This document shows positions 26,601-55,972 of a DNA stretch of 64,000 bases, piece by piece. Origin of the DNA: Apostichopus japonicus (taxonomy: Eukaryota > Echinodermata > Holothuroidea > Aspidochirotida > Stichopodidae); assembly GCF_037975245.1 (NCBI RefSeq), contig NC_092561.1, positions 19,961,508-20,025,507 on the forward strand. Direction: 5' to 3'. The translations under genes were made by a program, and so were the position numbers. The first letter of the stretch is position 1. The number at the start of each line of letters is the position of its first letter. Under the pieces are notes generated by a model. That model worked only from the letters and a program-made list of their open reading frames with translations. It was not told the origin of the DNA and ran no database searches.

Positions 26601-26602
26601 GA

Positions 26603-26885
<283 letters not shown>

Positions 26886-32861: not shown

Positions 32862-35800
32862 ATGGGAGTTCCTCGGAAGTCATCGGAGGTCGATTGTCAG
32901 ATTGAAACTAACCCTGAGAGTGTGTCACTGCCCACTACCGGTACAGTCGAGTGCGGTGACATGTTGAAACACAACCGCAAAGAAACTGTAAGACAAGAAA
33001 CGGAAGAAATCTTCAAACTGTTCATGGATCTGGAAGATGGTACAGGTATGTGTCTGTATTGACCTTTATGTCAAACATTTACCAGTGTAGTTATAAGACA
33101 ACTTAGCAATGCTGTGTTGCAACATCAATATAGAGAAAGAGAGATGCTTACCCCAGTAACAATCTTCTTTTTTCTTGATTTTATTTTTTATATATTGATG
33201 ATGATAGTCTGAGAAGTTGTCTTTATGTGTACAAACAAATTACTAAATATTACTGTACAGTACCTCCTGCCCTTCTTTCTCCTAAACTTACCCCCTCCTC
33301 TAGCTCTGCCACCACTCACCCCCTTCTCTTCCCTCTGAAAAGAAAATTAGTCTTGAAAAATTGTAAAAAAAAATATAAAAAAATTCACATCAAGAATTGA
33401 TTAATTTACGTTGATAATTTATGCAATTGGACATTTATGTAAGCTACAGTAGTACAGTACCACTCTATAGTAAATTGTACTCTTTTGTTGTCACGCGATG
33501 TCAAAGTCCTCATGTATGCACAGAACATCCAAAGTGTTGTCTCTAGAGGCAAGAGAAGTTCAGATATTACTGGTAAATAAAATACTTTAATTCAAGTCCT
33601 TTGAAGCTTGACATTACAAAGAAAGAACTCACTGAACAACACTGAAAGAAAATTGGTGATTACAGAAGCAACTGGAAGAAATTGGGCTTCCCCCTTAAAA
33701 TAAGATATGACTGCACAGTTATTATGCAGGACCTGACATGTGTAGACATGTTTCATGCCTGTGTAAACAGACAACACACATTACAGAAACTTGTGCATCT
33801 TTGTGCATGTACAGTAGACAGATATGGAGCTGACATTGTTGTACACTGTATGAAAAGTACTTACCCTGCACTGTTCCATGGCTGCACAGTAATATAACTA
33901 GTGACCTTTGCCTCATATTATCCAGGTTTGATAATTGATTTCATGCATGATAGAATTTCGTGGAATTCTACTGTACAACGTTTTGCACTATTCATGTATA
34001 AAGATATTTTGTTCCCCCTTTTTTTTTTTTTTTTACTGTCGGTCTACAGTACTTAGTTACAGTACGTAGTTCCTTATGTTCAGACATACTGTATGCTGTA
34101 CATGTTACAGTAAGCCTAGCGGAATACGTTCAAGTTGCTTATATATGGTATCACACACCGAAGACGTTTTTCAAATTCAAGCAAATTAGTCGATATATAG
34201 TTATACAAACTTACAAGACTTCAGATATATCTTTCTACAGTAGTTTTACATACAGTGACAAGCATTTTCAGTCTCTTTCGAAAGAGAACATTTCTAAAAT
34301 TCTGTGCTGTCAGTTGACTCTGGGTCCAGATATAATACAAGCAAGCATTGCATGATAGGAATTCAGTATCTAGAGTTCTGTGTCAAGAACAACTAACCTT
34401 CCCCCGGGTGCAGCTTTTTAAGAAGAATTTTGTTTGGGAGATATCCTACACTATAATCCTATACTCTCATGATCGTCAAATCCACTGGTACTGTAGGAGT
34501 ACAGAAACTATCCAGTTAATATATTCCAGCCCTTTAACAAATTTAACCTCTGAAGCAGACCCTGCTAGGATCGAAACGTCAGGCCCACTTACTTTTACAC
34601 ATGTACAGTATGATCGATAAGGGATACAGTTGATCATGAATTCCCCGGTGCGCAGCTGTGCGGGTCATCATTTTGAATGTTAATTCCTTGTTTTTTGTCT
34701 GTCCACACAGATGATCCCACTACAACTGCTAAACTTTTTCTTGGGAGTCCATCACTTGATTCGCAGACATCCATTGAAATGTCCCTAGACTTTGATACAA
34801 ATATAGAATCGGATGGATATAAGCCATCGTCCCTGCAGGACAAGGCCGCAAAAGGTTTGTTAGTCTTCATTTTCAAAGATTTCTTTCTGTAATTTCATTA
34901 AGCCTATTTCCTCGTCAATGTTGCCACGTACTGTACAGTACCTTATAGTGAAGCTTTATATCTTTATGATGTATTGCTTGATTTTGATGTAGTATGCACA
35001 TCAAATGTAAGCTAACAAAATCTTAGTCTGTGCAAATGTTGGTATGACCATATCCTTTACTGTAGATCTACACAAATGATATCACCAAAGAAAGTTATAT
35101 TAGTGTGTGTATGTGTGCAGAGGTCACACAGACACTATGCTAATATGGCCCACATAATCTGCAAAAATATGCATAATGCTCTCCAGCTACTGTACTAAAG
35201 ATATTTCATTGATAATATCTATTGCAATGTGTCCCATTTCGTATTCTGCCCCATTACCAGTTCAACCTAATCAGAATTAATGTTTTCACTTAATGTTTTA
35301 GTTATACACACCGATATCCACGATATCCGAGATCAAACGAAAGGTTAACAGATTATATAGCAGGTGACCAGCGGCCTATACCGATAAAAACAATCCACCG
35401 GTATTCTCAATCAATTGTAACCTTAGTATCACAATAACACAAATTTTCAAAGTTTGTATATATACACCTGGTTGTACTGTACAGTATAAACTGAGTTTTG
35501 TTATCTCCTGTAATTTTTTTTTCTTGGTCAGATGAGACTGATTCGGAGAGCAGTGAGGCAGATGCGAATGAAGCAAGCGGGGGAGAAAACAGCATCACCG
35601 ATATAAACAGTAGGGAAGAGTTTCTCAAAGCAGCCAGAATCCTGCAAGTTATCGGAGATGATATTAATAAAAAATACATTCAGGTGAGGAGAACCTATAG
35701 AACCATTTCATCGACAGAACCCAGACAAGTGCTGTTTGAAGCTGTTGTGGGAACAAAAATATACAGGTCAATTTCAGAGATTTATAAAAGTGGTCGCTAC

Positions 35801-36808
35801 ATGTTAATTGGGAGTCCAAATAATGACCAGCATTTACCCTTAATGCTTCAGTAAAGTCCCTTTCTAATAAAAATCTATCACTAATCAACTTCTAAAGCCT
35901 TTGTTATAAAGTTGGAGAATGGGGGACTGGAGTCTCTTCTCATCACAGCAGGGAGGAATTTGCTATTCACAATCATGATAAGTGGATAATTATGTTTACC
36001 ACCACATGGAGGTCTGTCTGGTCCCTTTGCAACCCCCCCCCCACCCTCCCCCACAATAGGTTAACCCATGGATATAATGAATTCTAGCAAAACAGTCGTT
36101 TGGGTTTTATGTTCATTGTTTTTGTCATCTCCATGGTAACTATACAGTATGTGATGAAATTGTTTTTCTTGAACTGTAGGCAGGCTAGTAATAAAGTCAT
36201 TCCACTAAAGGTTGAGTCGAATGTAACCAATGGTGAATAACCGTCCTGATTTGAGTAAAAGTTATCAATTGCAGGCATTTGTACAATCTCTTTGGGAAGA
36301 ACCTTTACAGACTTGTTTCAGGACTGTCACACATCTGAAAGTCAGACATGCACTACAATGCCGGTTGTGTGAGATAAAAGGCAAAAACATTTTGTTCTCA
36401 GAATTCTGTAGAACATTGTCTCATTTTCTTGAAAAGCCCATGCATGTGTAAAATGAGAAAAAGAAAATGATAAGCTTTGAAAATGAGTATAATTTGTCTT
36501 TCTTCTATCACATGCTTTAGGCTGACCCTGTGATGAAACAGTCACTCCAAAAGGTAACCAAAGAGATGTTGTCAACTGGTGCAGGGCATGTTTTTGAAGA
36601 ATCCCTGGACCAAGTGCTAAACGACTTTAACAAGTCTACTTTCCAAGAGGATAAGTACAAGGTAGCCCTGGTAATGCTGTGCACCCGTCAGGTGGTCAGG
36701 ACTATGAAGAAAGCTGCTGACTTTAGTGAGAGTACCAGCGTTCAGCTGGTTGATACAGCCATGACCTATATCTCCAGCCACTATCCCAATTGGAGAAAAA
36801 CTATTTAA
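32862..36808 (+). CDS. BID-like BH3 protein 1 (255 aa, 4 coding exons)
   Basis: Coding exons 32862-33045, 34711-34854, 35532-35683 and 36521-36808 join in frame (phases 1, 1, 0). The N-terminus has an amphipathic helix, TVRQETEEIFKLFMDLEDG, placed like helix 1 of vertebrate BID. A polar acidic linker contains IESD before G97 (aa 93-96) and DETD before S114 (110-113), both caspase-like sites. The BH3 motif is ARILQVIGDDINKKY (aa 144-158), with the key Leu147, Gly151 and Asp152, and very like the BH3 of BAK. The final exon (aa 161-255) resembles the BID C-terminal helices: DKYKVALVMLCTRQVV as the hydrophobic hairpin region, then TAMTYISSHYPNW. There is no NWGR BH1 motif and no clear C-terminal anchor, so BAX or BAK is less likely. 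Predicted role: caspase-activated trigger of mitochondrial apoptosis. The family call rests on motif and architecture. Confidence 0.8.
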
Positions 36809-37039
36809 TGATCTGAGGAAGAAGAAGAAGACATGTCTCTCAGCTGTTTGGAAACAAAAAAACAGAAAACCTGAAGAGAAAAAAACCACATGTTATTTGA
36901 GAAGCTTCTACGGTGGACACCTCTGCTCGCAAGAAACCGATGAAATGTCAGCAAGTTATTTGTGCTAGCCTAGTCATTTACCTTATCCATCCTACCGTAC
37001 TGTATTGCCGACATTTCACATTGGATGAAGTAAAACGTT

Positions 37040-37570
37040 TACTATCTATAGAGGATTGCTGTGAGTGACGACTCACCGAGTCATGATGAAGACTAGCCTA
37101 ACAGGACAACATAGTGTAATCCACTTAGCCTATACCGATGTGAATACTCATCTCTGTGTCCAGAATTATCATCATTTACCCTATCCATCCTAACGTACTG
37201 TAATGTCGACGTTTCACGTTTTATCCACGACACCGTGCAATGAAGTAAAATGTTGACTATCTATAGAGGATTGCTGTGAGTGACGACTAGCCTAACAGGA
37301 CAACATAGTGTAATCCACTTAGCCTATACCAATATGAATACTCATCTCTGTGTCCAGAATTATCATCATTTACCCTATCCATCCTAACGTACTGTAATGT
37401 CGACGTTTCACGTTTTATCCATGACACCGTGCGATGAAGTAAAATGTTTACTATCAATAGAGGATTGCTGTGAGTGAAGACTAGCCTAACAGGACAACAT
37501 AGTGTAATCCACTTAGCCTATGCCGATTTGAGTACTCATCTCTGTGTCCAGAATTATCATCATTTACCAG
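37040..37570. repeat. About 200-bp tandem repeat, 3 copies, behind BID-like gene 1
   Basis: GAGGATTGCTGTGAGTGA recurs at about 37050, 37266 and 37460, followed each time by AGACTAGCC or a variant, ACAGGACAACATAGTG, CTCATCTCTGTGTCCAG and CATTTACC. The first unit has a 16-21 bp extra segment. It lies 0.25 kb beyond the stop, probably in or near the 3' UTR. Confidence 0.9.
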
Positions 37571-40500
37571 TCTTCTTGTCATCAAAGTCTCAGTGTAGGC
37601 CTAATTTTTTCCGTTGCCAGTTTTATCTTAAGGGAACAAGTTTATTACTCATGCACAGTGGTCATACAGTACAGTAGGGCGTAGGCAAGAGATGCAAATT
37701 CGGTCAGAAAACAGCAGTCTGTACCAGGATATATATATATATTCTTTTCTTTTCTTTTTTGAAACTATTGAAAGTCAGATTTTAAAAACAGTTTTATCAT
37801 AAAGTAACAAATTATGTTATGGAATTTTGTACCTTGATTATTACAGTAAAAATATAAAAATAATTTTCACAAGAAAGTCTTTTCATTATATTCTTTGATT
37901 AACTATTTGTTGACACAACAGTAAGTTGAACTAGAAGAAGAAAACCAGCTTTCTGCCTCTTTAGCTTAAAGTATTAATCATATAATCTTTAACATTTAAA
38001 GGAGGTTGTATTTGTAAAATATTTAACTCTCCGAAAGACATATGAACTATGCAAAATTTACCAAAAAACGTTAAAGAAAAAAATCAAAGAGCTTCCATTA
38101 ATCATTTAACCTGTAATAAATATTTCTACAGGTGTATTATATCATATGGCATTTCTTCAGGTGTATAACTGTAGGCTAATGAATTCTTATGTAATCTAAA
38201 AAATCAGTCAACCTACTCTGTGTAAATATTAATACATACCTGTCCTGTCATAGTAATGAGTCTGTGTCTTGTTTAATGACACAAAAGTCCAATTGATTGA
38301 ATCATTAATTCATCAATCATATATGTTTGTTTTAACTTACATATTCTTAGACCATAGAACTGACAAGGATTTCCGTAATGGAGAAGGTAGAGGCATAAAA
38401 AGGTCATGTGTAAATCAGTGACACTGTGTTTCAGATTTAATTCAATTAATTTGTTGTTGCGCTTACTGTTGTATGCTATATGTATAACTTGTTAAAAAGT
38501 AATATTTAAGTTAAAAGATGGAGGGAAAATGTTGTTGAGTACATAAAAAAGGTGTATGGTTGGTAGCTTAAACAGCTGGTTTATGTAAGTTTAATAGAAA
38601 TCTATGGCAAAATGTTTTGAAGTAGGTGCATGCCCTTAGGGCACAACTTGAGACAGAGGAAAGGTATAGAGTGTTCCCGGGGGGAACTGAAATATTGTAT
38701 TCTTGCTTGGGTTGAGTTGTATCTGCCAACAATTGTCTTCCAATGCTCTTACATGTTGAATCAGTTCGAACTGCTTTTGTTTTCTTTTGCTTTTTTTTTT
38801 GCGGGGGGGCATTCCTCTAGTTCCTTTGGTTGTCAATTCTTGATTTGTTGCTAAAACTAGAGTAGCAAAATAACTTAAAATGTGAGATGATTTAATTAAC
38901 TCCACTTGTCATATCCCCAAAATTTTGAATTTTGTTATTAGATACTATTTTAGGAATGAATTTAGGCAGAAGTTTAAACTTGATATGTTATAGAAAGTCC
39001 AAAAAGAAAACACATATTAGTCTGTACGTACTTGTCTAGTCTGAAATTCTGAATCTCGATTGTTGACTTTAAAGGATCCATTTGCAAAATTGTGAAAATA
39101 CTTAAGAGAAAACACAAGTTGGACTGACAAGAGGCACAGTGGTCTTAACGGTCTATACCATATCAGAGTTAACTTTATGTCTAATGTCATTCTGCAATAC
39201 AAACGTGAATGTTTCTTATTCTTGGGGGGGGGGGGGGCGGTGGGGGAGGGGAAAGAATTGCTTAATCGATTGTAACTAACTATTTAAGTATACATAGAGA
39301 CACTTAATGAGGCCTGGTTTCTTAATTTTGACTTGTTTCAGTAATATTTCAGAGTTGTTTATGCAGAATTGCTGGCCATATGCAGCATACAATTAAGTAA
39401 GGCCAGTAAAGTAATCAGGGAAATCATTAAGAACCACCTTCTTTTCGTGTTTGTTGGATGATGTCGAACTCAAACTACGAATTTAATTGTAACTACAGTA
39501 ACAAGTTGTACATAATATGACAAATACATTTCTAATAAATTATATCTTCAGGCTGCACATTAAGATCATTGATCTTGCATTTTTTGAAAGTCCCTATAAT
39601 ATTCAGAAAGGGTACAAGGAATATTTTTGGGGGAGTAGGGGGGGGGGGTTGGGTTACGTGCCTTTGGGGGTTTGGGGTAGGGGCCTTTGGGGGTTTGGGG
39701 TAGGGGCCTTTGGGGGTTTGGGGTAGGGGGCGTCAGTGTCTTTCAAATTCTTCTTTAAGAAAGATGATATTCGTAAAAATATGAAATTAATACAGGTGCC
39801 AAAAAAAAAAAGCTTTGATTGGGTTGCATTTAAAAATGACATAATACTTTCATCACGTGTTATGTCTAAACTAGTTTGGTAAAGTACATTACTTTCCCTC
39901 AACCAAGCTACAGTAGCCCTACCCTACCTCTTCCCCGCCCTCATGGTCCACCCCTTCTCCCCCCCCCCATTCTACAACCGCACTACCACTGTTTTCGACC
40001 TTCGCCTGTGTACGAACGAGCTTAGTTTCCTTTGTTTTGACATGGCCTGTTGTAATTTAAATGTATTTTTGTCACTGACTCTTAATTGGTAGGTGTTGCG
40101 AAGAATTGCGCCATATGAAGCACGTACAGGGAGCCCTCACTCACTTTGCGATCGGCTTTGGAAGTTCATAGTTCCTTTGTCGAAATAGTAATAGCATGTG
40201 ATAGGCAGAGTTCAGATAATATTAAACTACCTCAGTTGGTCTTCCATTTGCATAGAGGAACGTAGTGCGGGAATTGAGCTTACTCCTCACGTATACGTGA
40301 GGGGGTTGGAGGTGGCAACCCCCCCCCAACCCCCACCACACCCCTATAAGTATGACATCTTTATCTAAAGTAAATTTCGATTTGCTAAAATGAGAAGCTT
40401 GAACACATGGTGAAGAGGGCAAGAGGTACATGGGCGTGCACAGGTTAAGCATTGAAGCTCACAATTGCGTTTCTTTTTTTTTATTCCCTTCCACCACAAC

Positions 40501-41299
40501 ATGGTTATTACCTTCCTTCGTTGTGTTCATTCTTTTTATAGACTACGAACTGGAAATACCCTATAGGTGCTTTTCCAGTTCTACCGGATGCGCCGCGGTT
40601 ACGCATTTGAACATATTCCGTCACGGACCTAAGAACGTACACGTCTGAAGCTAAACTTATGTAGCTTTTTCAATTATACTTTCAACCGGTTCCTTAAAGT
40701 ATAAAGATGTAACTCATTTCCCTTTCTCATCCGCTCTTCATCAGGCTGTGTGACAAATTAACTGTTACTAAAGTTACGTGGAAATACCTGTCTTACACAC
40801 AACTCTTTTAATTAAAAAAAAAAATCCCCTTTGCCATTTAAGCCTAGGCTACCGTAACCACGCTTAAGTATGTAGTAAAAGAAGACGAAGGCGTCTAAAC
40901 TAGGTTGGGAATCAGTGGCGGCGCCAGTTAGGGGTTTAGGGAGGCTGGAGGAGGTGGTTATAAGATTGTCACAGTTTTGAATTTCATAAAAATTAAAGTT
41001 AAAATATTCATAAACTAATATTTTGTTTACCGATGAAGAGACAAACAATGGGGGGAATATTGGCACATTCACTATGAGCCACCGGTCCCCTCCCCTCCTA
41101 TACATTTTCCCGTGATGTGCATTTTTTATACAGGAGGGATTCGGCATAACTTTGGCACCCAAAAATCTTTACTTGCCCTCCCTACCCCTCAACACCCCCC
41201 CCCCCCACTTTTGAATGCTGTTGCAGCCATTGGGAGAACCCTGGCCATTTTATTAAACATCCAACTCACTTTGTAGTGAAAGACTTACAGCCTCGCAAT
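37571..41299. other. Intergenic between BID-like genes 1 and 2, left part
   Basis: AT-rich DNA with G runs at 38806 and 39223-39250 and C runs at 39959, 40320 and 41200. No supported exons. A word CAGTGGCGGCGCCAG (40914-40928) resembles the start of the repeat at 62241. Confidence 0.45.
39640..39733 (+). repeat. G-rich 26-bp tandem repeat, quadruplex-prone
   Basis: Three copies of CCTTTGGGGGTTTGGGGTAG follow a G8 run. The dense G4-5 tracts at short spacing fit the G-quadruplex pattern. Confidence 0.8.
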
Positions 41300-41631
41300 C
41301 AGGCACGTAGCCAAGGGGGTGGGGCGAAGGGGGCAGCTGCCCCCCCCCCCTTGAGCATATTTTTAATTTAATTTTTAATGTTTTTATGATATCGCTAGTA
41401 ATTCAAAGGAGAAAATGCTAAGATGAAACTAACAAGGCCTGGGAAGTGCCATTTCCAGCGATCTGTGAGGCATTTTCAGCCAAAATATTCTTATACGCAA
41501 TTCGCGCCAACTTGACATAGTGGCGCTACGTACGCTTAGATAGTTTGAAATGCCGTATCTACGGCTCTGATTGTTTGCCTACATTTTCGCCCCCCCCCCC
41601 CCCCCTTGGCAAATTCCTGGTTACGCTCCTG
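41300..41631. mobile_element. Small inverted-repeat element, G/C-run family
   Basis: The ends CAGGCACGTAGCCA and TGGTTACGCTCCTG are inverted repeats matching at 11 of 14 positions. A G run then C run lies inside the left end and a C run inside the right. The interior (AAGTGCCATTTCCAGC, TAGTGGCGCT) is related to 10970-11080. No target duplication is evident. Confidence 0.55.
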
Positions 41632-44600
41632 GAGGTAGAAACAGTTATCAAAGGTTGGGTTGAGGGGCAAGGTAGCTTAGTGACATTTTCCCCTGGCTGA
41701 TGTTGGTAGGGGTATGGACCTTACTAATGGACGGGCTATACACAGATCAAATCGATTACGAAAGAGAGGTATGAGCTGGGCTATTAAGTGTTTTTTGCCC
41801 CCCTCTCTTTTCCCTCCTTTCAACTTTTTGAGACTCTTCTTATCATATATTTGCCCCATTACACTCATACTTTTTCCCCACCAAAAGTACACAAAGTTCA
41901 ACCATGATGGGAGGCCACAAACATTCACTTTAGCCTACCTGTAACGTATTTTAGTGCACGTTCATTTTATATACTGAAGAAATGACAGTCACATTCATTA
42001 ATCTTGTGTAGGCCTATCCCCTAACATAAATAATTCATTTCAAAAGTCGAACACCACAGTCATTTGCTATTAGCGATTACTCAGGGAAGCCCCTCCCCCT
42101 CTCCCCTTAATTGTTTAAATTTTTTCCTGTGTCATTTACTTCCCAAATTGAACAAAGTAAGCGTTAGTTGAACTGTATGTAGACCGTGTACACGCCACAT
42201 AAATAGGGATATATCTATGTTGCTATATAGTTCTGCGCAAGAGTGGTGCATTACCAAACTATACATCACTGTATACACATGGGGAATGTTCAAATCACAC
42301 TTGTTTCACCTGAAAACTTTCGTAGTTTTAAAGCATTGTAGATCATCAGTCCGAAATGGATGCTATGCAACGCAACAACTTGTCACGGCTTGTTCATTGA
42401 AAAAGGTACTTTCCAGAGTAGCTATAAAAGAAACAGATCAAAAACTCGTTCACGTGAGCGTTGTACGTGCGTGCATATAAGATAATAGATCAATGTTATA
42501 TGTATCATGCAAAATGACATTGTGATATATAGCTATATGCAACGGACTAAGACTCCACAGTGTCGTAGTTACATACAAGACTTGAGTCGATGCGTATCAG
42601 GACTTATCACCAGTGATCGATGAGTTTGGTAAGTTCAAAATATGAATCAAATCACAATAGGCTACTTCTTCGGTGTATTCAATTGGTCACCTTTGGAAAA
42701 GAACGCGTGCTATATAGAGCAGCTATTATTGTGGAGAGGAAACTTAAGCTGTTAGCGCTATATCTGTATAATCTACAGGAGTTCGCGGATAAAGTTTACT
42801 GGGTGTACGTTTGTTTATCTTATGATTACCGTTACTCAACCTGTACTTAACTATACAGCTACATATGCTACACCGAGCCATTGCACTCTTCAGTAGTATA
42901 TTACGAACCGTATACGGGTAGGCCCTATATGTATGAATTGTGCGTGGAGCTCTGTTCTTGGTTAGTCAAGCGGAGCGGTTGTTTATATTTATGCTCTAAA
43001 GATAATGAATCGACATGCCAGATTATATCAAGAATTGTCATAATATGAAACCTTCAAGAATCTCGAGGTTCCTGCAATCTTATACCTGTCTCAGCATGAG
43101 GAATCACTGAGCAGTTATTAATACTTCAGCATCTTTCATAATTTGAACCCTTTTAGTGATTTTGCGATTTAAAAAGATGGATTGATTGTATGATTACAAG
43201 TGGATGGTTTTGGTTAGTTTGTTGAAAGTTAAGCATATTAGAACGGCCGTTAATTGTGACGAGTGCACCGTGCGATTTTGATTGGCCCAGAACACAGTCT
43301 GTTCTAAATATATACGAACTGAACAACAATGTCAAATATTGTGAAAGAACATCATTGGAAAACACCGTAGCAGCCACGATGAAGCGGGACTAACGGGGTG
43401 GGAAAAATACTGGTAGGATCTTGGGAGAGGGGAGGGGGTTGGGGTCGCAATAGGGACGGGAAAATGCATTTATGTGGTTAATTGCGTTTACAGTTCATTA
43501 ACAATCTTTGAAATGTATAAGTTGATGTATTAACTGTCGTTTGCCATCTGGCAGTCGAACATTTTCATATAAGCACTCATCAATAATTAACTGTACACGT
43601 CCTAATTCCTACCTTCAAATTCACAAAAAGGAGCTTCAGGCATATAGGCCGTACTAATAACTCGTTGCTGTTTATGAAATGGCTGTTTTCTGCCATTTCC
43701 AGTTCGAAGTCTAAGTGGACGCGTTAGTCGCACGATCGTCCTATGTTCAATGTAGTTTCAATATATAACCAGTATGTAGGCCTATTAGGCCTATGTATAT
43801 TGTATGTATGATTTATATATTATGTACACGTTAGGACATACATGCACGTTTCCGACCCATGGTTACCGTGCATGGTTACCGCCTGAAGCTCAGCCAGTGG
43901 ATCTGTAATTAAGCTTAAGTAGCAATTAAATGATTTCTTTCAATTTTTCTAATGACGATATGGGGACCATGAGCGAGAAAGATTTGGGGAACAACATAGA
44001 GAGATCACACACGAAATTTCAAAAGTGTGTGTGTGTGGGTGGGGGGGGGGGGTTGGATGTATTCACGTGTATAAATTCTCCCGTTGCCCTGGATCAATGA
44101 GAAATTAATGTGTTGTTATTTTCATAATATTTTAAGTAATAAAAGTCTATCCGTCTGAGCACCGTAAGTCAAAACGATTTCATATACTCTTAATTGCTGT
44201 GTTTTTGTTATTATTGTACTGTTATAATATTGTGTTATAATAACGATTCTTGCCAGCGGCATTTGAAAATGAAAATATTTAAGTCACTTCTTGTCTGAAT
44301 TCTTGTATAGGGGGACCTACACCTAATACAGATATACTAGCGTATGTGGTGTGTTATTATATTAGATGTGCACAATGTGGGAATGCCTGTCAAATATTGG
44401 TGGTTTGCTATTTTTATATTTGCTTTCATATTCAGATAAGGAAGTGAACAAAGTGCGTTGCATTGTCGAGTGCCACTCTGTGTATACTGTACTGTTGGGC
44501 GTCGACCTCTTAAACAGACTGTTGTACTAAATGACACCAGCGTACGTTATTCGAAGTTCGGTGAGTCATTTCATTATATGAGTGACTTAAATTTGGTTGC

Positions 44601-46262
44601 ATGAGTAAAAGGAGTCTGCGGTCTCTGTTTTAGATCGTAGATTTATCAGACGCACCCTCAAATGCAAAGTAGCTTTCTAACACGAAGACCGAAAGAGACT
44701 CTCAACGATCATTATGGTCATGCATGGTGCAGTAGGATAGGCGGGGTCTTTTTTTTGGCGGAATGAAACTACGCTAATGGTTACAATCCTAGGCCTACCA
44801 GCCTACCCATACATACATGGAATGTAAACGGTGGGCATACTGTACGCAACGTCACGCGATGATGAGTGGGTATGACGTCACAGAGTCAAACTGATTTCGT
44901 AGTTGACTTAGTCAATCATCATGCCATGAGCTGGGGTACTAAGTCCATGTGACGTCATCGGATATTCGTGGTACATGTGTAAAGGCTCTAGTTTCACTTC
45001 ACCGCAAGCCTTTTTACAGACACACCTTATAATGACACTACAGTGCTGAAAATTGACCACAGTGTAAACAAAATAGACTTAGGTGTACTTATTACAAAAA
45101 AAGCGTCATGCTTTAGCGGCTAAAGCATGACGTTTTTTGGTTTAGCCTATATAACGCTTAAATATCTGCCAATTAAATTGGTTCAGCGTAGTCCTGTAAT
45201 ATCTCCATTTTTCTATGACAATCTAATAACGACAATTTAAAAAGGCTTAAGTAATAATCATAACTAATAATAACAATTGCTGCAACAAGGCGAATAACAC
45301 TATTGAAGGTTACCGTATACAAATGAAAGAGTTAGATCCAATTCAACGGAGGAGGTAGAATGAGGCCGTGGGGCCATGGACCCCTACCTCCCAACGTCAT
45401 TCGACGAATATTAGTCCCCACGGAAATATGTCCCAACATGGGAGTCGGCTTGAACGACCACAGGGCCAAATCCCTTTCTCAAATAATGTCCGCAACTAAA
45501 CTCCTGTACACTAAATTTTCAAAATTAGAAAGAAAAATACATTTTATTTGACTAAAGAAAATTAATTTGACGATGTTTGAGATTTGGGATGGTTTCCATT
45601 GATTCTTGCAAGAATATTTCTTCTATTATTATTATTATGATTATTATTATTATTTATGGGTGTTTTGTTCTTTTTTCCTTCTATATATCTTCTTACAGAA
45701 AATTTCTTCGACACCTCCACTTATTTAGTTATATTCTCGTAGCTGTTCACTTATAGTTTGTTTATTGTATGATTGTGTTTGTATTCACTAATGTTTTATG
45801 TTTACTGTCGACGGGAAATAATTTCCGTTTTTCTGTTTTCTGAAATGGACAATAAAGTTTCTATCTATCTATCTTAAGTTGATGTTCCCGTTTATGTGAA
45901 GTTGAAAGAAAATGTTTTGGCTGAGATATTATAATTTATGAAATAATAGGTTTCAATTTAGTCCTGCACCAATGGGCAGATGTCATCAGTAATGTAGCCT
46001 TAAAGGAGCATTTCATAGATTTAATATATTTAATATATTTTTGAAGCTGAATATCTTGAAATCAAGAACAACTAGAAACATTCAACTGGCATTTATTCTA
46101 CCAATTTTCTTTAGACTATAAAATGTGAATACTAAAATTCTGCCTGTTAAAAATTCAGACCGTAAAGAATCTTTTTGAATTTATGTCTTTCTATCAAGGT
46201 ATTCACCAGTCTTCTATACTTGCAAGAGGTGGAGAGAGAGGGTGGAAAACCCCACCAACAAA
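41632..46262. other. Intergenic between BID-like genes 1 and 2, right part
   Basis: No gene is supported. It includes a near-perfect palindrome (45104-45132), a G run at 44041-44052, a segment at 45350-45470 sharing GGGAGTCGGCTTGAACG words with 11550 and 57800, and a retroposon-like tail at 45700-45880 ending ACAATAAAGTTTC(TATC)n. Leader exons of BID-like gene 2 may lie near the right end but cannot be placed. Confidence 0.45.
45104..45132. repeat. Near-perfect palindrome (14-bp arms, 1-base loop)
   Basis: CGTCATGCTTTAGC, G, GCTAAAGCATGACG. The arms extend outward as A-run and T-run (AAAAAAG and TTTTTT). It could be the centre of a folded-back MITE, or a cruciform-forming site. Confidence 0.85.
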
Positions 46263-49200
46263 ATGGACCAGCAACCATCGGGACCGCAGACAAGATCTAT
46301 GAAAAGACAAAACTCTAGTACAGTTGAGCATGTAACCAACAGATTGGATCGAGTGTCAACGGAGGAAGTAAAAAAAGATCCAGTTGTTAACATCAGTCCT
46401 CCAAGAAAACACAAGCTATCTACTTCAAAAGATCCTTCCAGTAAGAAGAAAATCAGACAACAGTCGAGGAATGAGCAAGATGTGAGAAAGATAACTAGAG
46501 CTGTGTTAAAAATAATCCTAGAGGTGCAGGACAGTTCAAAGAAAACCCCTCGAAGGAAACGTAGCAGGCAGCAGGGAATCAGCCCACCATTGGCCTGTAA
46601 CTTCAATGAAGCTACAACCGCCACCAAAACTGTAGGTAAGTACATGGGGCAAACTCACAGGGGTGGTGGGAATCAGCCCACCATTGGCCTGTAACTTCAA
46701 CCAAGCTACAACCGCCACCAAAACTGTAGGTAAGTACATGGGGCAAACCCACAGGGGTGGTGGGAATCAGCCCACCATTGGCCTGTAACTTCAACCAAGC
46801 TACAACCGCCACCAAAACTGTAGGTAAGTACATGGGGAAAACTCACAGGGGTGGTGGGAATCAGCCCACCATTGGCCTGTAACTTCAACCAAGCTACAAC
46901 CGCCACCAAAACTGTAGGTAAGTACATGGGGCAAACTCACAGGGGTGGTGGGAATCAGCCCACCATTGGCCTGTAACTTCAACCTGCCACCGCCTACAAC
47001 CTACAACCGCCACCAAAACTGTAGGTAAGTACATGGGGCAAACTCACAGGGGTGGTAGGAATCAGCCTATCCTTGGCCTGTAACTTCAACCTGCCACCGC
47101 CTACAACCTACAACCGCCACCAAAACTGTAGGTAAGTACATGGGGCAAACTCACAGGGGTGGTAGGAATCAGCCTATCCTTGGCCTGTAACTTCAACCAA
47201 GCTACAACCTCCACCAAAACTGTAGGTAAGTACATGGGGCAAACTCACAGGGGTGGGCTCCAGGACTTTTTTTTATTTTTTATATAAACGAAGGGTAGAG
47301 TTTAGGTCTTGGAAATACATGTCATGGCTAGTCTATAGGGAAATCACAAAAATAGGTTGCGCGAGGACAAAAAAGCTAAGCAGGACTATGTAGATATATA
47401 TATATATAAAAACCGTAATTGTAATCTTGTTGCTATTTTGTACTTGATTCTTTCTTCTCTGCAACATCATCAATTCCAGAGAAATCTGAGACAAGTGGAC
47501 CCTCATCCCTTGACTTTGGAGGTGCAATCGAACCTGACGGTAGCGATTTGTCCGCCGGCGATGGTCCCATTGAAGCAGATGGTGGTAATGCGAATACCAG
47601 TGATGATGGCCAACAAGGAAAGAGTTCTATGGGTAATATCTTCTAAGCCTCCCCCCCCCCTCCACTCCCTCGTCGACACAGGTATGATATGGAGGAAGGG
47701 CAGGATTCAGATCGGGGAGAATTTCAATGATGGTGGGAGTGCCTCTTACGGCGACACCAAGTCCGCTTGGAAACTTGATTTAGAAATGTAAAGGGCATAC
47801 CCTTCTCCACTCCGGTGACCCGCCCCCTCAAACCTGACGACATAATAATAGGCCTATATTAAGTCAGCTTTATGTCTGTGGTCATTACAAATCATACTGA
47901 AACCAAATTAGCTCTCGCAAACGTAGTCAGGGAAATGGGCACAGGCTTGGTTTGAAAGTAGTATAGTGGGGTTCATTTTGGGGTTCTTTTTACGCGAAGA
48001 GTTCCCGCTCTACACTTAAAGCCCAAAAGTGTCTAATGCTGATTTGTGACTGGACCTACCAATGTGTGACTCGTATCACTGACAGTGAAATTTGTATCCA
48101 TTCTTCTTGTTTCAGATCCAAAGGTTGTTAAAGAAGCAGCTGCAAACCTTAGAAATATTGGAGATAAAGCAAATAAAGAGGTAAGAGACACAGCTCTTTG
48201 TATGCCAATATAAGTTACAAAAGTTCAAGTTTTTGGTTTTATGTTATCACATTCAGTTGAGAAGGTCCCTTTCTCTCGTTCAGGATGCTTAACTAATATG
48301 TTATTCAAGTTATTGAAAGTGCAAACCTAGAGTCAGGTGTGGAGAAGATCCGGAGCAGGTTGGTAGTTTTTTGTGAAAAACCCCAGTGTGCCTCCTTGAA
48401 GTGCCCGTGTTTGGCGAAAAGGACCCTTTTTGCTCATTTTGTTATGTTATGTTAAAAAGGGACATTTTATTATGTATTAAGTATACCCTGTTGTTCAAGG
48501 AAAACACACTATCATACTGGCATTTGTACAGTTTTGTGCAGAGGCTCGATTTTGTCCGAAAGCTTTGTTGTATAACGTGGTTTCCCCCTTGACAATCATG
48601 TAACGGTTCTCACCGTTCTTCCGAAGGTTTGCCCCTTTCCCAGATTGAACCCTCTCTCCCACCGTCCCTGTCTACACTTACTGTATAATGAGAGCGAATT
48701 GAAGCATCCGTACACCAAAGGCCAATGCTTTGCGATCAATTTATGTAAGTTATGGCACACACAAAAGTTAAACTAAAACTTAAAAAATTATGAATACAAG
48801 AGAACGGCAAGAGATATCCCAGTGCTGCCACCAGTAGGCTGGGACGTGTTGCGTGGTTTTATACATTTGTAGGTTTTTGTTTGAGTAAATCTAGCAGGTG
48901 GTTTGATCAATGTACAGTGAAAGACCTAACCAAACACTAACAGCAATTCAACGCTTCAAGCTTCGTGTGCAGAATAGCCTATTATTTTTTATAGAAATCA
49001 GTAAGTTCATGATTGTCCTGGACTCGTTTCTGGGTTTAAGATATGACAGGCTTTTGACAAGGTAACAAAGGGTAATGAACAGCACAGGGTCCAATCCAAT
49101 TCCATTTTTGTCATACCATTTTCGACTAAATGTTGTTCCTATTGTCATCGGCTGTACTACTACTGATCTTCAATTCATATTCTCGTCACCAGGCGAAGCA

Positions 49201-49459
49201 ATTAGTTTTGGAAGCAGCTTTGAAGATCGTGAAAGAAGGAAGTTACAAGAAGTACAAAGAATGTTTGACAATTCTGATCGACGATAGCCAAGCTCAAATA
49301 TGTGATGGATCGGAACGTTCCGTAGTAGCTGTCGTATGCCTTCTAACACAAATGGTAGTAACAAAGGCCAAAGATGCGATGGTATCAGATGCAACCGTGG
49401 ATGAAGTAGTAGAAGCTGCAACGGAATACATCGTTGAAAACCATCCGACTTGGGTGTGA
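46263..49459 (+). CDS. BID-like BH3 protein 2 (285 aa, 4 coding exons)
   Basis: Coding exons 46263-46635, 47480-47632, 48116-48180 and 49193-49459 join in frame with phases 1, 1, 0, the same order as gene 1. The first exon (aa 1-124) is basic, with SPPRKHKLSTSKDPSSKKK and KKTPRRKRSRQQ stretches that look like nuclear localisation signals; no BID-like helix 1 is obvious. Exon 2 encodes an acidic Gly/Ser linker with two sites of the I-E-x-D/G type, IEPD before G145 and IEAD before G159. Exon 3 is a separate BH3 exon, EAAANLRNIGDKANKE (aa 182-197, Leu187, Gly191, Asp192). The last exon gives the helical C-terminus, with VVAVVCLLTQMVVTKAKDAM and ATEYIVENHPTW aligning with gene 1. The ATG context is strong (AACAAAATGG). 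The first donor is copied downstream in a tandem repeat. The function is inferred as pro-apoptotic; the nuclear signals are unusual for BID. Confidence 0.75.
46575..47258 (+). repeat. 94-bp tandem repeat carrying seven copies of a splice donor
   Basis: The unit includes GGAATCAGCCCACCATTGG, CCTGTAACTTCAA, AAGCTACAACCGCCACC and AAAACTGTAGGTAAGTACAT. The junction GTAG before GTAAGT occurs at 46632, 46726, 46820, 46914, 47021, 47128 and 47222: spacing 94, with two 107-bp units that carry a CTGCCACCGCCTACAAC insert. The first copy is the 3' end of coding exon 1 of BID-like gene 2. Confidence 0.95.
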
Positions 49460-49735
49460 TGTATGATGGCGAGGAAGCCAATAGACTACTATCAACTGCA
49501 GCAAGTTGGTTATTTACTGAGGTTACATCACCCTCTGCTAAGAAACTGACCGCGGGATCTAAGTTCTATATACTGTACAGGCTTATTGACGTTATGTCAG
49601 TTTAAGGAAGATTTAATGATAACATTTAGAAATACGGGAATGCCTCATAAGGACGGATGTATGTATGACGGCTGTACATTTCTGTGGTGAGACTGCCTCT
49701 TTACATTACTAGGTAGCCTAGGCCTACTCTGTGCA

Positions 49736-49741
49736 AATAAA
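49736..49741 (+). promoter_or_regulatory. Poly(A) signal AATAAA, BID-like gene 2
   Basis: Canonical hexamer about 280 bp past the stop at 49459. Confidence 0.5.
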
Positions 49742-50579
49742 TTTACTTGGGCCAACAAAACTGCGTAATAATGGTAATTTAATTAAAGCCATAACTGGGG
49801 GTACAATTCAAGTCTTGGTTGTACAGTTTGTTAATACTGCATTTGTGTATCAAGTTTTGTGATAATTGAAAGTGAGTGTACTTTCAATTCGACTCTCAAT
49901 CTGGTAGGCTGGTACCAAAATTACAGAGTGATAATCGTCGTGTGTCTTTGGGTAAAGGGTTTTCTGTCTGATTGCGGGGGTGGGGGAAAGATATTTTAGT
50001 TAGGCCTATATATTACAGCTCAAGTAAACTTGGTTGGTGTGTTTCCTTGAAATATCCAAGGAGTTCCGATAACTTTGTAAGCATTTCACGCATTCCATTC
50101 TTTCGTAAATCTTCATAGATAGCTGACCCATACAATTAACAATTTGATGTCAGCTGGGCCGATACTTGTAATGATCATTACTAGGTATAGACTTTACCAT
50201 TGACACAAAGTTGCAAGAAGCTCAGGGAACAAGATTAGTTTCAATTCTTGAAATGGTTATGTAAAAGCTCGTGAGTATAATAGTTGTGTGCGTAGTCTAT
50301 GAAACTATTGCGATCATCTATTTAAAGTAAATTATTTGGCATTTTGCATAATCTTGCTACATTTTCTATAAATATGAAATGCATATGTTTTAATAATTAA
50401 CTTAAAGCAGCTTTGGAGTTGATGATTGGTATATTAAAACATGTTTATTAAAATCCATTAACAATTCGTTAACTCCACAACTCGCATTTTATTTTAAGTT
50501 TGTAATACGAAAAGCATGCCAGGATCTCGATATTTCCACTCATTTCATATAGCTGCACGCATAAAAGTATACTATTCTG

Positions 50580-51000
50580 TGTTGTCTGGTGTAGGCCTAT
50601 ACCTGCTTCCTTAGGTATTACTCTGCAGTTGTCAGGTGTTCCTCTGCTTGCCTAGGTATTACTCTGTGTTGTCTGGTATTAGCCTGCTCACCCAGCGTTT
50701 ATTCTGTGGTGTCTGGTGTAAGCCTGCTTGCCAAGGTATACTCTGCAGTTGTCTGGTGTAAGCCTGCTTACATAGGTATTACTCTGCGTATATGCTGTTG
50801 CCTAGGTATTATCGTTGGTGTCTGGTATAGGCCTAAGCCTGCTCACTCAGCGTTTACTCTGCAGTTTTCTGGTGTATATGCCTGTTGCCTGGGTATTATG
50901 GTTGTTGTCTGGTGAATGCCTGCTTACCTAATATTTCTCTGCAGTTGTCTGATGTATGCCTGCTTGCCAATGTATGTATTACTCATTGTTGTCTGGTGTG
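50580..51000 (+). repeat. Degenerate minisatellite, units of about 40-60 bp
   Basis: The words TTGTCTGGTGTA, GCCTGCTTGCC and AGGTATTACTCTGC recur about nine times with variable spacing and heavy divergence. An old tandem array. Confidence 0.8.
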
Positions 51001-51902
51001 AAATGATGGGACCCATAAACAGCTGCTAAAACCGTGATAATAGCACACCTGCGGGAAGAGTTCGTCTCCAATATTATATATATATATATATCAAGGTTAA
51101 ATACGTGCCTTAATTCATGCTTGAACCAATTGTTTGATTGTTGATTGACGTTCAGAGGGTCAATTATCAAGAGTATACGTTGTAAAGAAATATAACGAGA
51201 ACACAAAAGGAGGCACAAACCCCACTTTTATCTTTATCATATATTGACAGTGATCTTTGCGAAGCAAATCTTCTTGAACAACTTAGAAATCTAACCTACT
51301 TTGCTCCGTTTATAAGGTATCGTATAATTTAGAATATATACTTTGGGTGCTGTTAGTTTGTTAGCCTATAGTGCCACTATGATCTGAAATATTTTGTTGT
51401 TGTTTTCTTTCAATATTTTCAAGGTACTGTATTTTGTTAACAGTACTTTGAATTTCAATAATGTAGAGTCAGCCTTTGCCAAAATCCCCCTCCAGTACAG
51501 TAAAATAAGCAATAACAATAAATAAAGCAAAATACACAATAAATATGAAAGATTCATTGTCACCATGATGTCATATTTTAGACTTGATCAAGTCGTCGGC
51601 CTTGTATGTGAAGGCACATTAAATCTGTGATATCTTCCAGTATGGAGTTTTTCTTAGCTGTTTGGTGAAGGTAATAATAATATTTATGTCTGTCACTCAA
51701 ACCAATAATGATGGTAGATAGTTGGTGTCTCATTTTTTATAAAGTGATTCTCGACAATGTACAACCTATCAATGTTTACATTATGTTTACAATGTTCTTT
51801 TAAGAATCCTGCAAAATCCTGCAAGTTTATTGGTTGTTTTTCAAAAGACATGGAAGTAAAACAATCTTCAATATTTCAAAAAATTGTTGTTATTGGTATA
51901 TG

Positions 51903-52126
51903 CAGTGGCGTACCAAGGGGGTGGCGGTCCGACCCTGTTACCAGGGGGCTACATGCCACACACCCCATCAAGAAAGCTCTGCCAAAGATAGCACCATTTT
52001 ACATATAAACCAGCTTATATGAAAGAAAAATGCTCCAAAGGGGAACCCTCCTCAGGATGGCATCACCTGCACAGGGTGACAAAGGAAGGATCCTCCCGGG
52101 GGCCAACTTATCTAGGTACGCCCCTG
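51903..52126. mobile_element. Small inverted-repeat element
   Basis: The ends CAGTGGCGTACC and GGTACGCCCCTG are 12-bp inverted repeats with one mismatch, the CAGKGGCGTA-type terminus common in marine invertebrate genomes. The interior has ACCAGGGGGCTACATGCCAC. No convincing target duplication (GTATATG at left, GTTATAG at right). Confidence 0.65.
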
Positions 52127-53579
52127 GTTATAGGTGTGACTATTTGTTCAGTTAATGTACATTGTGTCACCCAGTTTATATCAGAGATTATAGTGACATT
52201 CAAACTGATCAGGGACACACAAATATAACTATAGTGACACCCTCAGACATGACACCCACATATACTACATGACGCCCTATAGTAGATCGTTAACGCCCAA
52301 ATATAGATTTGGTCGAGCTGAAATGGATAAGTGACGCCGCGATCGGCCAGTGACGCTTATATCGGTAAGTGACGGCCTGACGGTCACGTGACATGAAAAC
52401 AGCAATCTTTTCCGATCAAACAATGTTTCTCTGAGTGAGAGTAAAGTAAGACATATATCTAGTCGGTGTAAAGCTTATTGTGTGCCGACAAATAGGTACA
52501 GCGGGCACACCCACGGGTACCAGGGGGCTTCATGCCACACCCCCACCGAACAATCTGTAGTGATCAAACAAAGTTTCTCTAAGTGAGAGTAAGCTCAGTA
52601 AACTACAATAACACGGTATGATATCTGTTGCGGTGGATGTTTCCCCGTCGTTAACGTTGATTATAGAATGTTCTCAACAAAATTGTTCTGTTTCTAGTTC
52701 TATAATTTATACATCGCTGTAAACTTTCAGTTGCAAAATACTTACTAATTTTTCCCGAATCTCCCTATTTGTTTACATAAAAAAATGTTAAATCTCCCAA
52801 ATTTTCGTGACAGACAGGAACTTGGCAGATCTGAAAAAGTGATGTTTTTATCCATCGTTATCTGAAACTATATAGTGAACCCTGTAGCTTCTCTTTCCCC
52901 ATATGCCACTTACTAATGATATACTAACACACATGTCAGCTTGTCGAACTATTTCGCGTGTCAGGCCTTATATTTGTTCGTATTGATAAATGTATATAAA
53001 CGGTGGGTTTATCTAATACAGTATCATGATATTATATGTGAACAAGAACAATGCGTATGCAGCAACTCGGCACGTTGTTGCCTCAGATTATAACACCAGT
53101 CGAACTTTGTATTATTTAAATACACAAACCCAACGTAAAAAGGTAACTATATACACTGGCAGCTGATAAACTATATGTATAGGGTTGTTATACATTCATG
53201 AATTCAATTGAAACGATAGTGACATTTGATAAACTTAGGCTAAACAGAGGTGTGTAGTTACCGATAGTCTTACAGTGTATAGGACAGCAAGGTGACGGGC
53301 TTATCCTATAACAAAATCCTACCTTTATATTTATTTTAATCTAGTATGCATATCGAGCAGCTGGCCTAAGGACAGCTCAACTTCATGCATGTATTCTGGC
53401 CGCAAGTGTATGATCCATTGTTGTTGTTGATGTTGTTGTAATATATTGCGAATATTGACCTACAAGGTTTATTGAGTTCGCTATTGCCAAACATTTATGA
53501 TTCCTCAACGAAAAGGGAGATAGCTAATTGTTTATTTCATCACAAATGGACGCCAAGTGAAGCAGCACGATAATTCAGT

Positions 53580-55972
53580 ATGATGACGTCTTATGATAAT
53601 AGTAAAATCAAAGAGGATACGAGGTACATTCTAAACCTCCTTCTGCTCGATGAGGGCCTATCGTTTAATCAGCGTGATGATGTATCCATTCTAACCTCAA
53701 GTGTATCAGTCGGTACACTACAGGCTACGCCGGGCACTACATGGTCTGATCAACAAGGTAAGCTGGGAATCACTTAGTTGAGCTAGTTAGGGCAGTTGTC
53801 TGAAATTAAAAGAATAGTCCAGGTCCAAAATTTCGTTTTAATATTTTAGAGACGAAGTCTATTGTATTGGATAGGGTTACTAGTTTGTCTAAAGGGGATG
53901 TGAAGTTTATAAAATGCCAATACTTATGGTCAGAGGCGTAGGGGGCGGCGGGGGAGGGGGGCTGCAGCAATTTTGGTTATATTTTTTGGACAAGTCGTTA
54001 CAGCCCCCCCCCCCCAAATCAAATTGGGCGCCTATGCCTGTGGTACATACACATTATGGATGCATCCAATCGTGGAGTATAAAATTAGACGTACATTTTC
54101 GAGGAAAACCAAACATTATTTATCATTCTGCAACAATGACGTCACACCTGTTTGCTGCAAGTTCACTTTTGGTACGAAAGTTGGCAACTTCAACTGTCAA
54201 TATCTCAAAAACGGTACTTAGGGATTGAATGCAAATTTCACCAGAATGCTTAGATTATGTTCCTCTTTAACACATCAAAACGAAATTTTGACCTGGACTA
54301 TTCTTTTAACTTGTAGCGAATGGGAGTTGATTTAGTTGGCATAGTAACGACTGTTCGAGGGAGTGTTCAAGTGAGCGGGCGAATGCGGCGGGCGAATGAC
54401 TTGATGTATTGACGATTGTTTGGAGGGGGGGGGGGGGGGGAGGGAAGGTCGAATGGGCGAGTGAATGAGTGGATCACTGACAAACAGAATAAGGAAATAA
54501 TTGGGTAACAAATAAATGTACAAGTCATGTATTTTGTGAATGGATTGACGAATGAACGGACGGACGGACCGATGGATGGATAGATAGACTAATGTGACCA
54601 GACATATCCGATTTTCGGAGACAGTCTCCGATTCAAATGTTTGGTGCCCGATTAACATGTGTCTCCAAAGATGTCTCCGGTTTAACAACAAGTCTCTGAT
54701 ACTTTAAAATACGACATTTCATTCACAAGAAAAATCTAAAAATGTTGCTAAATCTACCTTCCTGCCCGTTATACTATAATCACACATCATTGAAAAACCA
54801 AAGATAGGCTATACACAAATTCCTCGCACAAACTACTTTAATGCAGGGTAGGCCTATCCTATCATATACGCGGAGTAATGTATACAAGCGTAACAGTGTT
54901 CCCTACGACGTAGAAATCGTGTTACTCATACTGACCTATACAAGCCTACACTCTTGATTATGTCATGTCTGTGCTCTACCAGCTTTTCTCCTCTAAGGGG
55001 AGAGACCCCTCCCCAGGCCGCGAGAATTTTAACAAAAAGTGGTCACCTTATAGGATAGTCGGATGGATTGAAAGGTTGAGGCTGGTTGCTATGGATTTAT
55101 GTATTAAGGTTTATCTGCTGAAACTTTCTCCGTAATAGAGAAATATGTACCTCCTGCTGCGACCTCATCGAATTTCTTGTCACCCAAGTTAAACGACGTA
55201 GAGATTACTGAAGCCCCTTTCACCAAAGAAACAGTTTATCCCGAATACACACCAGGTGCATCGAAGCATTACAAGCAGGACCAATTGGACAAGATTGCTG
55301 AAGAAATAAAACGGATCGGAGATCAACTGAATCCGAAGGTAAGCTCATGCTCCCCCGTGTACAATTAATTGCAGATATCCTTAACTAAAGGGATGGATCG
55401 GTAACTGACATGTCATGGTTTAATAAAAATGCTGGCCATTTTTCTGCATCTATAGGTGAAAGCCGTATCCTAATAGCATGTTGCATGGCGAAGATATGAT
55501 TTTTATGTAAGACCACACCGTCAGACCAAATTTTAATATTTGTTAGGAAATAAACGTTTATTTCGTTGAGTGAATCCATGAATTTAAATATGAATGAAAA
55601 TCTTTTTGGCAACGTGATAAGTCATTAGCTATTAATTTGTCATCTATCAATTTTTTCGTCAATATTTTCTTTCATTTACTACAGATAGAAAAAGAACTTC
55701 AAAACCTATTACTGAAGAAGGTGCTCCTATCTTCATCTCAAGTTGCGTATTCCACATTTGAAGAATGGATCAAGGAATTCTTGACGGAGCACCAGTACAG
55801 CCTGGTTGATAAAAGCGACAAATACAAAGTCCACCTGTTTCTGATGTGTGTGAAATTATCACTGAAGACTGCCACGAAGCAACTACATGTTACATCTAAC
55901 GCATGTCAGAGACTTTACGACTTCAGTGTCAACTTTGTCGTTATAAACTTTCCAAATTGGATGAATGTATAA
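53580..55972 (+). CDS. BID-like BH3 protein 3 (221 aa, 3 coding exons)
   Basis: Exons 53580-53757, 55139-55338 and 55685-55972 join in frame (phases 1, 0). Two ATGs open the frame (53580 and 53583). The N-terminal helix KIKEDTRYILNLLLLDEG matches helix 1 of gene 1 in place and pattern. The linker (aa 60-105) is Pro/Thr-rich and has no I-E-x-D/G or D-E-x-D site. The BH3 motif DKIAEEIKRIGDQLNPK (aa 110-126, Ile116, Gly120, Asp121) ends exon 2, directly before a phase-0 intron as in genes 1 and 2. The last exon is 288 nt, exactly as in gene 1, and shares DKYKVHLFLMCVKLSLKTA and VNFVVINFPNW with it. Predicted BH3-bearing, BID-like regulator of apoptosis. The lack of caspase-like sites suggests different control. 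Confidence 0.78.
53931..54040. mobile_element. Very short inverted-repeat element in intron 1 of BID-like gene 3
   Basis: Starts CAGAGGCGTAGGGGG and ends GGGCGCCTATGCCTG, with G runs inside the left end and C runs inside the right. TGGT flanks both sides (53927-53930 and 54041-54044). It looks like an internally deleted member of the GGCGTA-terminus elements. Confidence 0.45.
54350..54600. repeat. Simple GAATG-type and GGAC repeats with a G run
   Basis: GAGTGN and GAATGN words (54355-54475), G runs at 54425-54440 and GGACGGACGGACCGATGGAT (54558-54577), in intron 1 of BID-like gene 3. Low-complexity DNA. Confidence 0.6.

Follow-up and report, generated by a model that had tools for sequence, protein, structure and literature searches.

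BID connects protease signals to mitochondrial death. Proteins resembling it are described here from the sea cucumber Apostichopus japonicus (a species of which we take S. japonicus to be a synonym), where three genes, hereafter A, B, and C, lie on the plus strand of a 64,000-nucleotide stretch of contig NC_092561.1 (positions 19,961,508 to 20,025,507; this whole stretch is called the window, and its coordinates are counted from its first nucleotide). Together with copies found elsewhere in the genome, they constitute a family whose affiliation with the Bcl-2 superfamily is practically beyond doubt. The reading favoured here, with a probability of about 0.6, is that the members of this family are soluble proteins with a Bcl-2 fold of the BID/BFK type, i.e., latent pro-apoptotic activators; the BID/BFK type itself is favoured, not proven.

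According to a survey published in 2022 (PMC8998228), Bid is not encountered before Chondrichthyes and is apparently absent in lamprey and hagfish; its methods list an Apostichopus genome among those searched. The same source describes echinoderm BH3-only candidates (one of them, of 118 residues, from S. japonicus), which likewise bear a BH3 motif; these were retrieved by searches seeded with Bim, Bad, and Bmf and are predicted to be disordered, whereas the sea cucumber proteins discussed here comprise 169–285 residues (six complete models) and are predicted to be folded. Oyster annotations lack BID, which has yet to be identified in molluscs according to PMC8917759, and a literature search, in which most subscription papers were not covered, yielded no report of an echinoderm BID among its top matches. 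For BFK (BCL2L15) and BID, PMC8814693 reports a core without BH1, in which a basic residue takes the place of the NWGR Trp where helix 5 begins, and caspase sites ahead of BH3. If a folded BH1-less family of the BID/BFK type is indeed present in a sea cucumber, the origin of this design would move back to early deuterostomes, or the design would have evolved twice; if its genes truly descend from a BID-type gene, the coupling of proteases to mitochondrial death by a folded BH3 protein would predate vertebrates.

Gene A (32862–36808) consists of four exons encoding 255 amino acids, with intron phases 1,1,0. Its exon 1 (32862..33045), covered by the database protein P0001, encodes the N-terminus and helix 1 (VRQETEEIFKLFM, weakly resembling VAQDTEEVFRSYV of BAK); exon 2 (34711..34854) encodes a flexible linker with the block SLDFDTNIESDG and the candidate caspase site IESD↓G; exon 3 (35532..35683) encodes an acidic linker and the BH3 (AARILQVIGDDINKKY); and the last exon (36521..36808) encodes helices 3–8, without NWGR, and the C-terminus YPNWRKTI. 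Gene B (46263–49459; 285 amino acids) likewise has four exons and intron phases 1,1,0: exon 1 (46263..46635) with a basic N-terminus and helix 1 (VRKITRAVLKIILEV), exon 2 (47480..47632) with a linker harbouring SLDFGGAIEPDG and IEADG, exon 3 (48116..48180) with the BH3 (AAANLRNIGDKANKE), and the last exon (49193..49459) with helices that are of the Bcl-2 type by homology, again without NWGR, ending in HPTWV. In gene C (53580–55972; 231 amino acids, intron phases 1,0), three exons carry, respectively, helix 1 (IKEDTRYILNLLLLDEG; 53580..53757), the linker together with the BH3 (IAEEIKRIGDQLNPK; 55109..55338), and the Bcl-2-type helices without NWGR, closing with FPNWMNV (55685..55972).

The initial annotation had proposed three plus-strand genes joining in frame, with BH3 exons spliced to final exons of a common pattern, and this structure is borne out: GT/AG is found at every intron of A, B, and C, the joined frames contain zero stops, the BH3 sits in the penultimate exon of each gene, and the last exons contribute 95, 88, and 95 residues, closing with YPNW, HPTW, and FPNW. 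The limits proposed for the cluster are exact as well, since 32862 is the ATG of A and 55972 the stop of C. The joins themselves, including those between the BH3 exons and the final exons, are carried by database proteins. P0001 (255 aa) shows 97% identity to A across 255/255 residues (7 differences); its source contig has 1,048 bases, compared with the ~3.9 kb genomic span of A, and is therefore spliced and carries all three joins of that gene. P0004, an A. japonicus "uncharacterized protein" of NCBI, is identical to the joined protein of B, and P0005 (A. japonicus BSL78_24603) differs from C only by four substitutions and by a later acceptor of exon 2 (55139), which makes it 10 residues shorter. 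The three joined proteins recognize one another in pairwise BLASTP (A–B 6.6e-11, A–C 1.1e-9, B–C 8.4e-6), so the genes are regarded as paralogs. In gene B, the 3′ end of exon 1 including its donor (CTGTAG/GTAAGTACATGGGG) recurs in about seven copies at 46574–47256, which form a 94/107-base tandem array extending into intron 1; judging from P0004, the first of these donors is the one used.

The family is larger than the three genes noted initially, comprising at least seven. The genome was queried with two last exons only, those of A and of protein P0003, which makes seven a lower bound; the P0003 query yielded eight scored candidates, seven of them family matches (A to G). Copies D (C1:10.05 Mb) and E (C1:10.12 Mb, minus) reside on the contig that also holds the window, and the tandem pair F and G is found at C8:35235236–35235463 and C8:35217204–35217434, both minus and both as matches to the P0003 last exon, with DNA 82–86% identical in the two longest matching stretches. 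Intron phases are kept in the models of D (1,1,0) and of F and G (1,0). The 169-residue protein of G is identical to P0006; F and P0008 differ by two residues at one acceptor. For E (L003/L006/L017, C1:10.12–10.14 Mb), a BH3 exon and a last exon were found, 78% and 91% identical to P0003, and a search of ~17.6 kb on the 5′ side of the former revealed no earlier exons; this may be a truncated copy. An exon-by-exon search of the whole genome with the Pfam BID model returned zero matches and detected 0/14 controls as well, so it gives no evidence of absence.

The core architecture of the family is close to that of BID in several respects. From the N-terminus, helix 1 is followed by a linker, which is long in most members, then by the BH3 helix and a hairpin core lacking BH1, BH2, and a tail anchor; as in BID, the BH3 is embedded in a (predicted) Bcl-2 bundle. 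The BH3 motif L/I-x3-G-D, which had been noted in A, B, and C, is kept in all seven members, and the distance from its G-D to the C-terminus (95–107 residues) matches that of BID (102), as the initial annotation held, and also that of BFK (103). The absence of NWGR is confirmed: in the alignment, the W of this BH1 column is present in 0/7 family rows vs. 8/8 multidomain rows. The BH2 motif GGW is likewise found in none of the seven, all of which end 1–5 residues after the last W, before BH2, leaving no room for a tail anchor; weaker evidence of the same kind is the hydropathy of the last 45 residues (0.07–1.39 in the family; 1.39, 1.68, 1.84, and 2.44 in human BAX, BCL-XL, BOK, and BAK). The BAK/BAX effectors, by contrast, possess NWGR, GGW, and a C-terminal anchor. 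One residue past the NWGR-Trp column, K or R is found in A, B, C, F, and G and P in D and E, with BID and BFK aligning there with an offset. The closing W, noted initially as part of the common pattern, is not diagnostic of BID: the P-(N/T)-W motif lines up with a W of helix 7/8 in BAK, BAX, and BCL-XL, and BID has Tyr at this position. Further differences from BID include an identity of about 25% or less, the long N-terminus of A, B, and D, the copy number, and the missing last ten residues of the BID type.

The profile comparisons agree with the Bcl-2/BID fold suggested initially, with mouse BID as the best match among all PDB chains: the four-sequence family profile ranked it first (8.7e-6), followed by BAK (0.011), and the seven-sequence profile retrieved mouse BID (2.0e-5), the mouse BID BH3 peptide (0.004), mouse BAK (0.005), Hydra Bcl-2-4 (0.007), and human BAK (from 0.01). 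A hidden Markov model (HMM) of the family scored mouse BID at 27.7, followed by human BAK (20.5), A. japonicus BAK (17.7), the Bcl-2-like exon L028 of the same genome (16.6), BCL-XL (13.6), L018 (13.0), human BID (12.9), BFK (12.5), and BAX (7.4), with 7.3 for the best shuffle. A BID HMM was built from 100 sequences of a third protein-database search, all with a precomputed Pfam BID domain (120 of the 234 matches of this search were covered; over all three protein-database searches, the named matches came from mammals, A. japonicus, and two cloning vectors, and many were unnamed). It gave 19.4 to 8.1 bits for seven proteins (A, B, C, D, F, G, and P0003) and 4.9 bits for the best of 360 shuffles; other scores were 7.8 for A. 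japonicus BAK, 7.4 for human BAX, 5.0 for BAK, 2.8 for BOK, and 2.6 for BFK. In hhalign, probabilities of 78% were obtained for BAK and for mouse BID alone, 76% for BCL-XL, 41% for BAX, 15% for BFK, and 3% for BOK, with at most 1.2% for five column-shuffled BID alignments; hhalign thus shows homology to the superfamily without choosing a branch of it.

With Pfam, whose gathering cut-offs are 25.0 bits for BID and 31.4 bits for Bcl-2, the BID/Bcl-2 scores were 25.1/24.3 for G, 22.9/24.4 for F, and 13.9/16.8 for C, and BID alone was matched by B (17.9) and P0003 (11.4). The joined proteins are required for such matches: a scan of single exons gave neither BID nor Bcl-2, the nearest match being a BIM-type BH3 (E 0.17) for the BH3 exon of C. 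Matches to cystatin, parvovirus coat, TRH, FF, and other models were dropped as lying below their cut-offs. The AlphaFold models of A and C (overall pLDDT 61 and 56) resemble Bcl-2 folds, and the 50 VIA rows listed for each of them all belong to the Bcl-2 family (50/50); Foldseek placed human BFK at the top for A (E 0.24, probability 0.97) and BAK at the top for C.

A resemblance of some members to BID, at the level of motifs, concerns the linker upstream of the BH3. Exon 2 of A, B, and D contains the blocks SLDFDTNIESDG, SLDFGGAIEPDG, and SLKFTSDIESDS, respectively, with a conserved IE(S/P)D(G/S) motif; E was left out of this comparison, its linker exon not having been found. The best three-way 12-residue match of the A, B, and D linkers has 6 identical columns, a value reached by 0/300 shuffles (maximum 4). 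Shuffled versions of the A, B, and D linkers contain an [ILV]-E-x-D-[GSA] site with a probability of 0.01, 0.02, and 0.05, respectively. The loop before BH3 in human and mouse BID contains LQTDG and IEADS or IEPDS, which we take to be the caspase-8 and the granzyme B site, respectively. That a caspase cuts A, B, and D at this motif is a prediction.

Phylogenetic trees were inferred for the core from BH3 to helix 8 with 22 rows, the comparison set being small and partly entered by hand. Conventional Bcl-2 genes were sampled from the same genome, where PF00452 gave 12 matches at E ≤ 0.1 (9 above the cut-off) and, in this search, none at the seven family loci; of these, L018, L019, L020, L027+L022, and L028 were included, and the partial exons L021, L023–L026, and L029 were left out. 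L022 (above the cut-off) and L027 (below it) together represent the A. japonicus BAK candidate, in which both NWGR and GGW are present. The family, BID, BFK, and L028 were separated from eight multidomain proteins with a support of 95/97; the split persists after removal of the BH1/BH2 columns (91/95), and additionally without BFK and L028 (86/89). In the best tree, the family stands beside BID+BFK; forcing the family and BID into a clade that excludes BFK and L028 carries a cost of 7.4 log units (p-AU 0.062). L028 (C1:5414639–5414884, minus), a Bcl-2-like exon below the cut-off with WIDSQGGW and without NWGR, falls within the BID-like branch; it is a candidate for a BFK/BCL-G-like gene or for a relict of a BH2-bearing ancestor of the family, and no BH3 exon was identified for it with confidence.

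A number of observations weigh against the BID/BFK assignment or reduce its support. The W of NWGR is also missing from L021 (TAHR), a partial A. japonicus Bcl-2 exon outside the alignment, which shows that this loss is not confined to the BID/BFK side. In the seven-sequence PDB profile, human BID lies far below mouse BID (E 0.47 vs. 2e-5). The Pfam BID cut-off was reached by only one of six proteins (G, by 0.1 bit), and P0001, a relative of A, matched neither BID nor Bcl-2. In the BID HMM, C, D, and P0003 (8.4, 8.4, and 8.1 bits) are approximately tied with A. japonicus BAK and human BAX, and in hhalign a mixed multidomain Bcl-2 alignment received a higher probability (95%) than mammalian BID (88%), with 21% for human BID alone. 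No Foldseek match of the A and C models was found at E ≤ 0.001, and BID was not among the VIA rows listed for them, an absence which is no evidence in itself. The support of the split falls to 82/97 when the alignment is trimmed after BH2; once the BH3 columns are omitted, it disappears (38/93, BID then lying on the opposite side), and forcing the group costs only 0.3 log units (p 0.48). Hence, the trees indicate that the grouping with BID/BFK is not merely a shared loss of NWGR and GGW, since it survives the removal of the BH1/BH2 columns, yet it leans on the columns of BH3. Finally, a caspase-like site was not found in the linkers of C, F, and G.

Some of these points suit an alternative in which the resemblance to BID is convergent: a multidomain gene, either BAK-like or similar to L028, would have been deprived of BH1, BH2, and the anchor within echinoderms before it duplicated, giving rise to BH3 activators or sensitisers without specific kinship to BID. 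Such a course of events is considered unlikely, though it draws on the dependence of the grouping on BH3, on the hhalign preference for the multidomain alignment, on the position of L028 (GGW, no NWGR, same genome) inside the family's branch, and on gene A, whose BH3 (IGDDIN) and helix 1 are most BAK-like and whose best PDB matches, when it is taken alone, are to BAK, none of them significant (E 0.21 and up). It is opposed by the persistence of the BID-side grouping without BH1/BH2 columns and by the rejection of a clade of the family with BAK in four of five tests (p-AU 0.008, 0.009, 0.002, and 0.008), the exception (p 0.45) being the one without BFK, L028, and the BH1/BH2 columns. Gene A as a BAK proper, suggested by its BH3 and helix 1, was discarded on the same tests and for its lack of NWGR, GGW, and anchor. 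Within the BID/BFK type, kinship with BFK rather than BID, i.e., with a weakly pro-apoptotic, BH1-less, caspase-activated protein, is improbable. BFK stands on the family's side of the tree, is the Foldseek top match for A and the second PDB sequence match for G (0.071), and is described in PMC8814693 as having a core like that of BID as well as caspase sites ahead of BH3; at the same time, it is defined by BH2 together with BH3 and retains the GGW that is missing from 7/7 members, and it ranks below mouse BID in the sequence profiles.

The family was also described initially as fast-diverging, and here the dN/dS values (0.73 for exon 1 and 0.77 for the last exon of F/G, 0.30 for the last exon of D/E) and the counts of replacement and silent changes in the BH3 stretches (5 and 0 for D/E, 9 and 2 for F/G) agree with this description, but positive selection is not shown and the numbers are small. 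The excess of replacements in the BH3 exons of these recent copies, along with the lack of the linker site in C, F, and G, would fit decoys or inhibitors, i.e., fast-diverging members binding pro-death partners via the BH3 or the groove without killing, or serving non-apoptotic roles. This is the least probable of the explanations considered, given the retention of L/I-x3-G-D in 7/7 members and the low dN/dS of the D/E last exon. Overall, the claim that the proteins are of the BID kind rather than BAX, BAK, or BCL-2 stands with regard to the architecture, the top match of the profile in the PDB, and most of the trees; it does not discriminate between BID and BFK or between orthology and independent loss of BH1 and BH2, and the hhalign probabilities run counter to it.

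Under the BID/BFK reading, the resting protein would keep its BH3 packed within the bundle, as the predicted fold suggests. In A, B, and D, a putative caspase-8-like protease (a caspase-8 being assumed in the A. japonicus genome) would cut the linker at IE(S/P)D↓(G/S), upon which helix 1 would depart and the half carrying the BH3 would move to mitochondria. There, it might engage BAK/BAX-type or pro-survival partners like tBID does, both the partners and the killing being conjectural. In C, F, and G, which lack the site, control might be exerted by expression, another protease, or partner binding. We infer from sequence that the members are latent BH3 activators, some of them released by a caspase. 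Members bearing the cleavage motif coexist in one genome with members devoid of it, a natural experiment on why proteases act on BID. As for the origin of the genes, it is tentatively suggested, at somewhat less than even odds, that they are true descendants of a BID-type gene of the deuterostome ancestor, which was lost or is unrecognised elsewhere and expanded in sea cucumbers to at least seven copies in two branches, with and without the caspase-released IE(S/P)D site.

The genomic surroundings add a few minor observations. A V-ATPase subunit E gene is located at C1:846673–849730 (minus), on the same contig as the window and 19 Mb from the cluster. Its human counterpart, ATP6V1E1, presumably neighbours BID; as synteny, this is a hint only, one neighbour having been examined on a contig amounting to 3% of the assembly. 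Within the window, a Methyltransf_32 exon (3835–4218, plus) and a fibronectin type III exon (60194–60526, minus) represent fragments of neighbouring genes. Two minus-strand frames at 20975–22363 and 22261–23127, one of 463 codons with a sub-threshold match to DUF4218 (a domain we assume to be transposase-associated) beside one of 289 codons, probably belong to a DNA transposon. Tandem arrays occur at 8468–9478, 15699–16143, 25535–25974, 26597–26911, and 37087–37568; the arrays of the window include a 50-base unit repeated 20 times, a 110-base unit repeated 4 times, (TAA)105, and, directly 3′ of gene A, a 194-base unit repeated 2.5 times.

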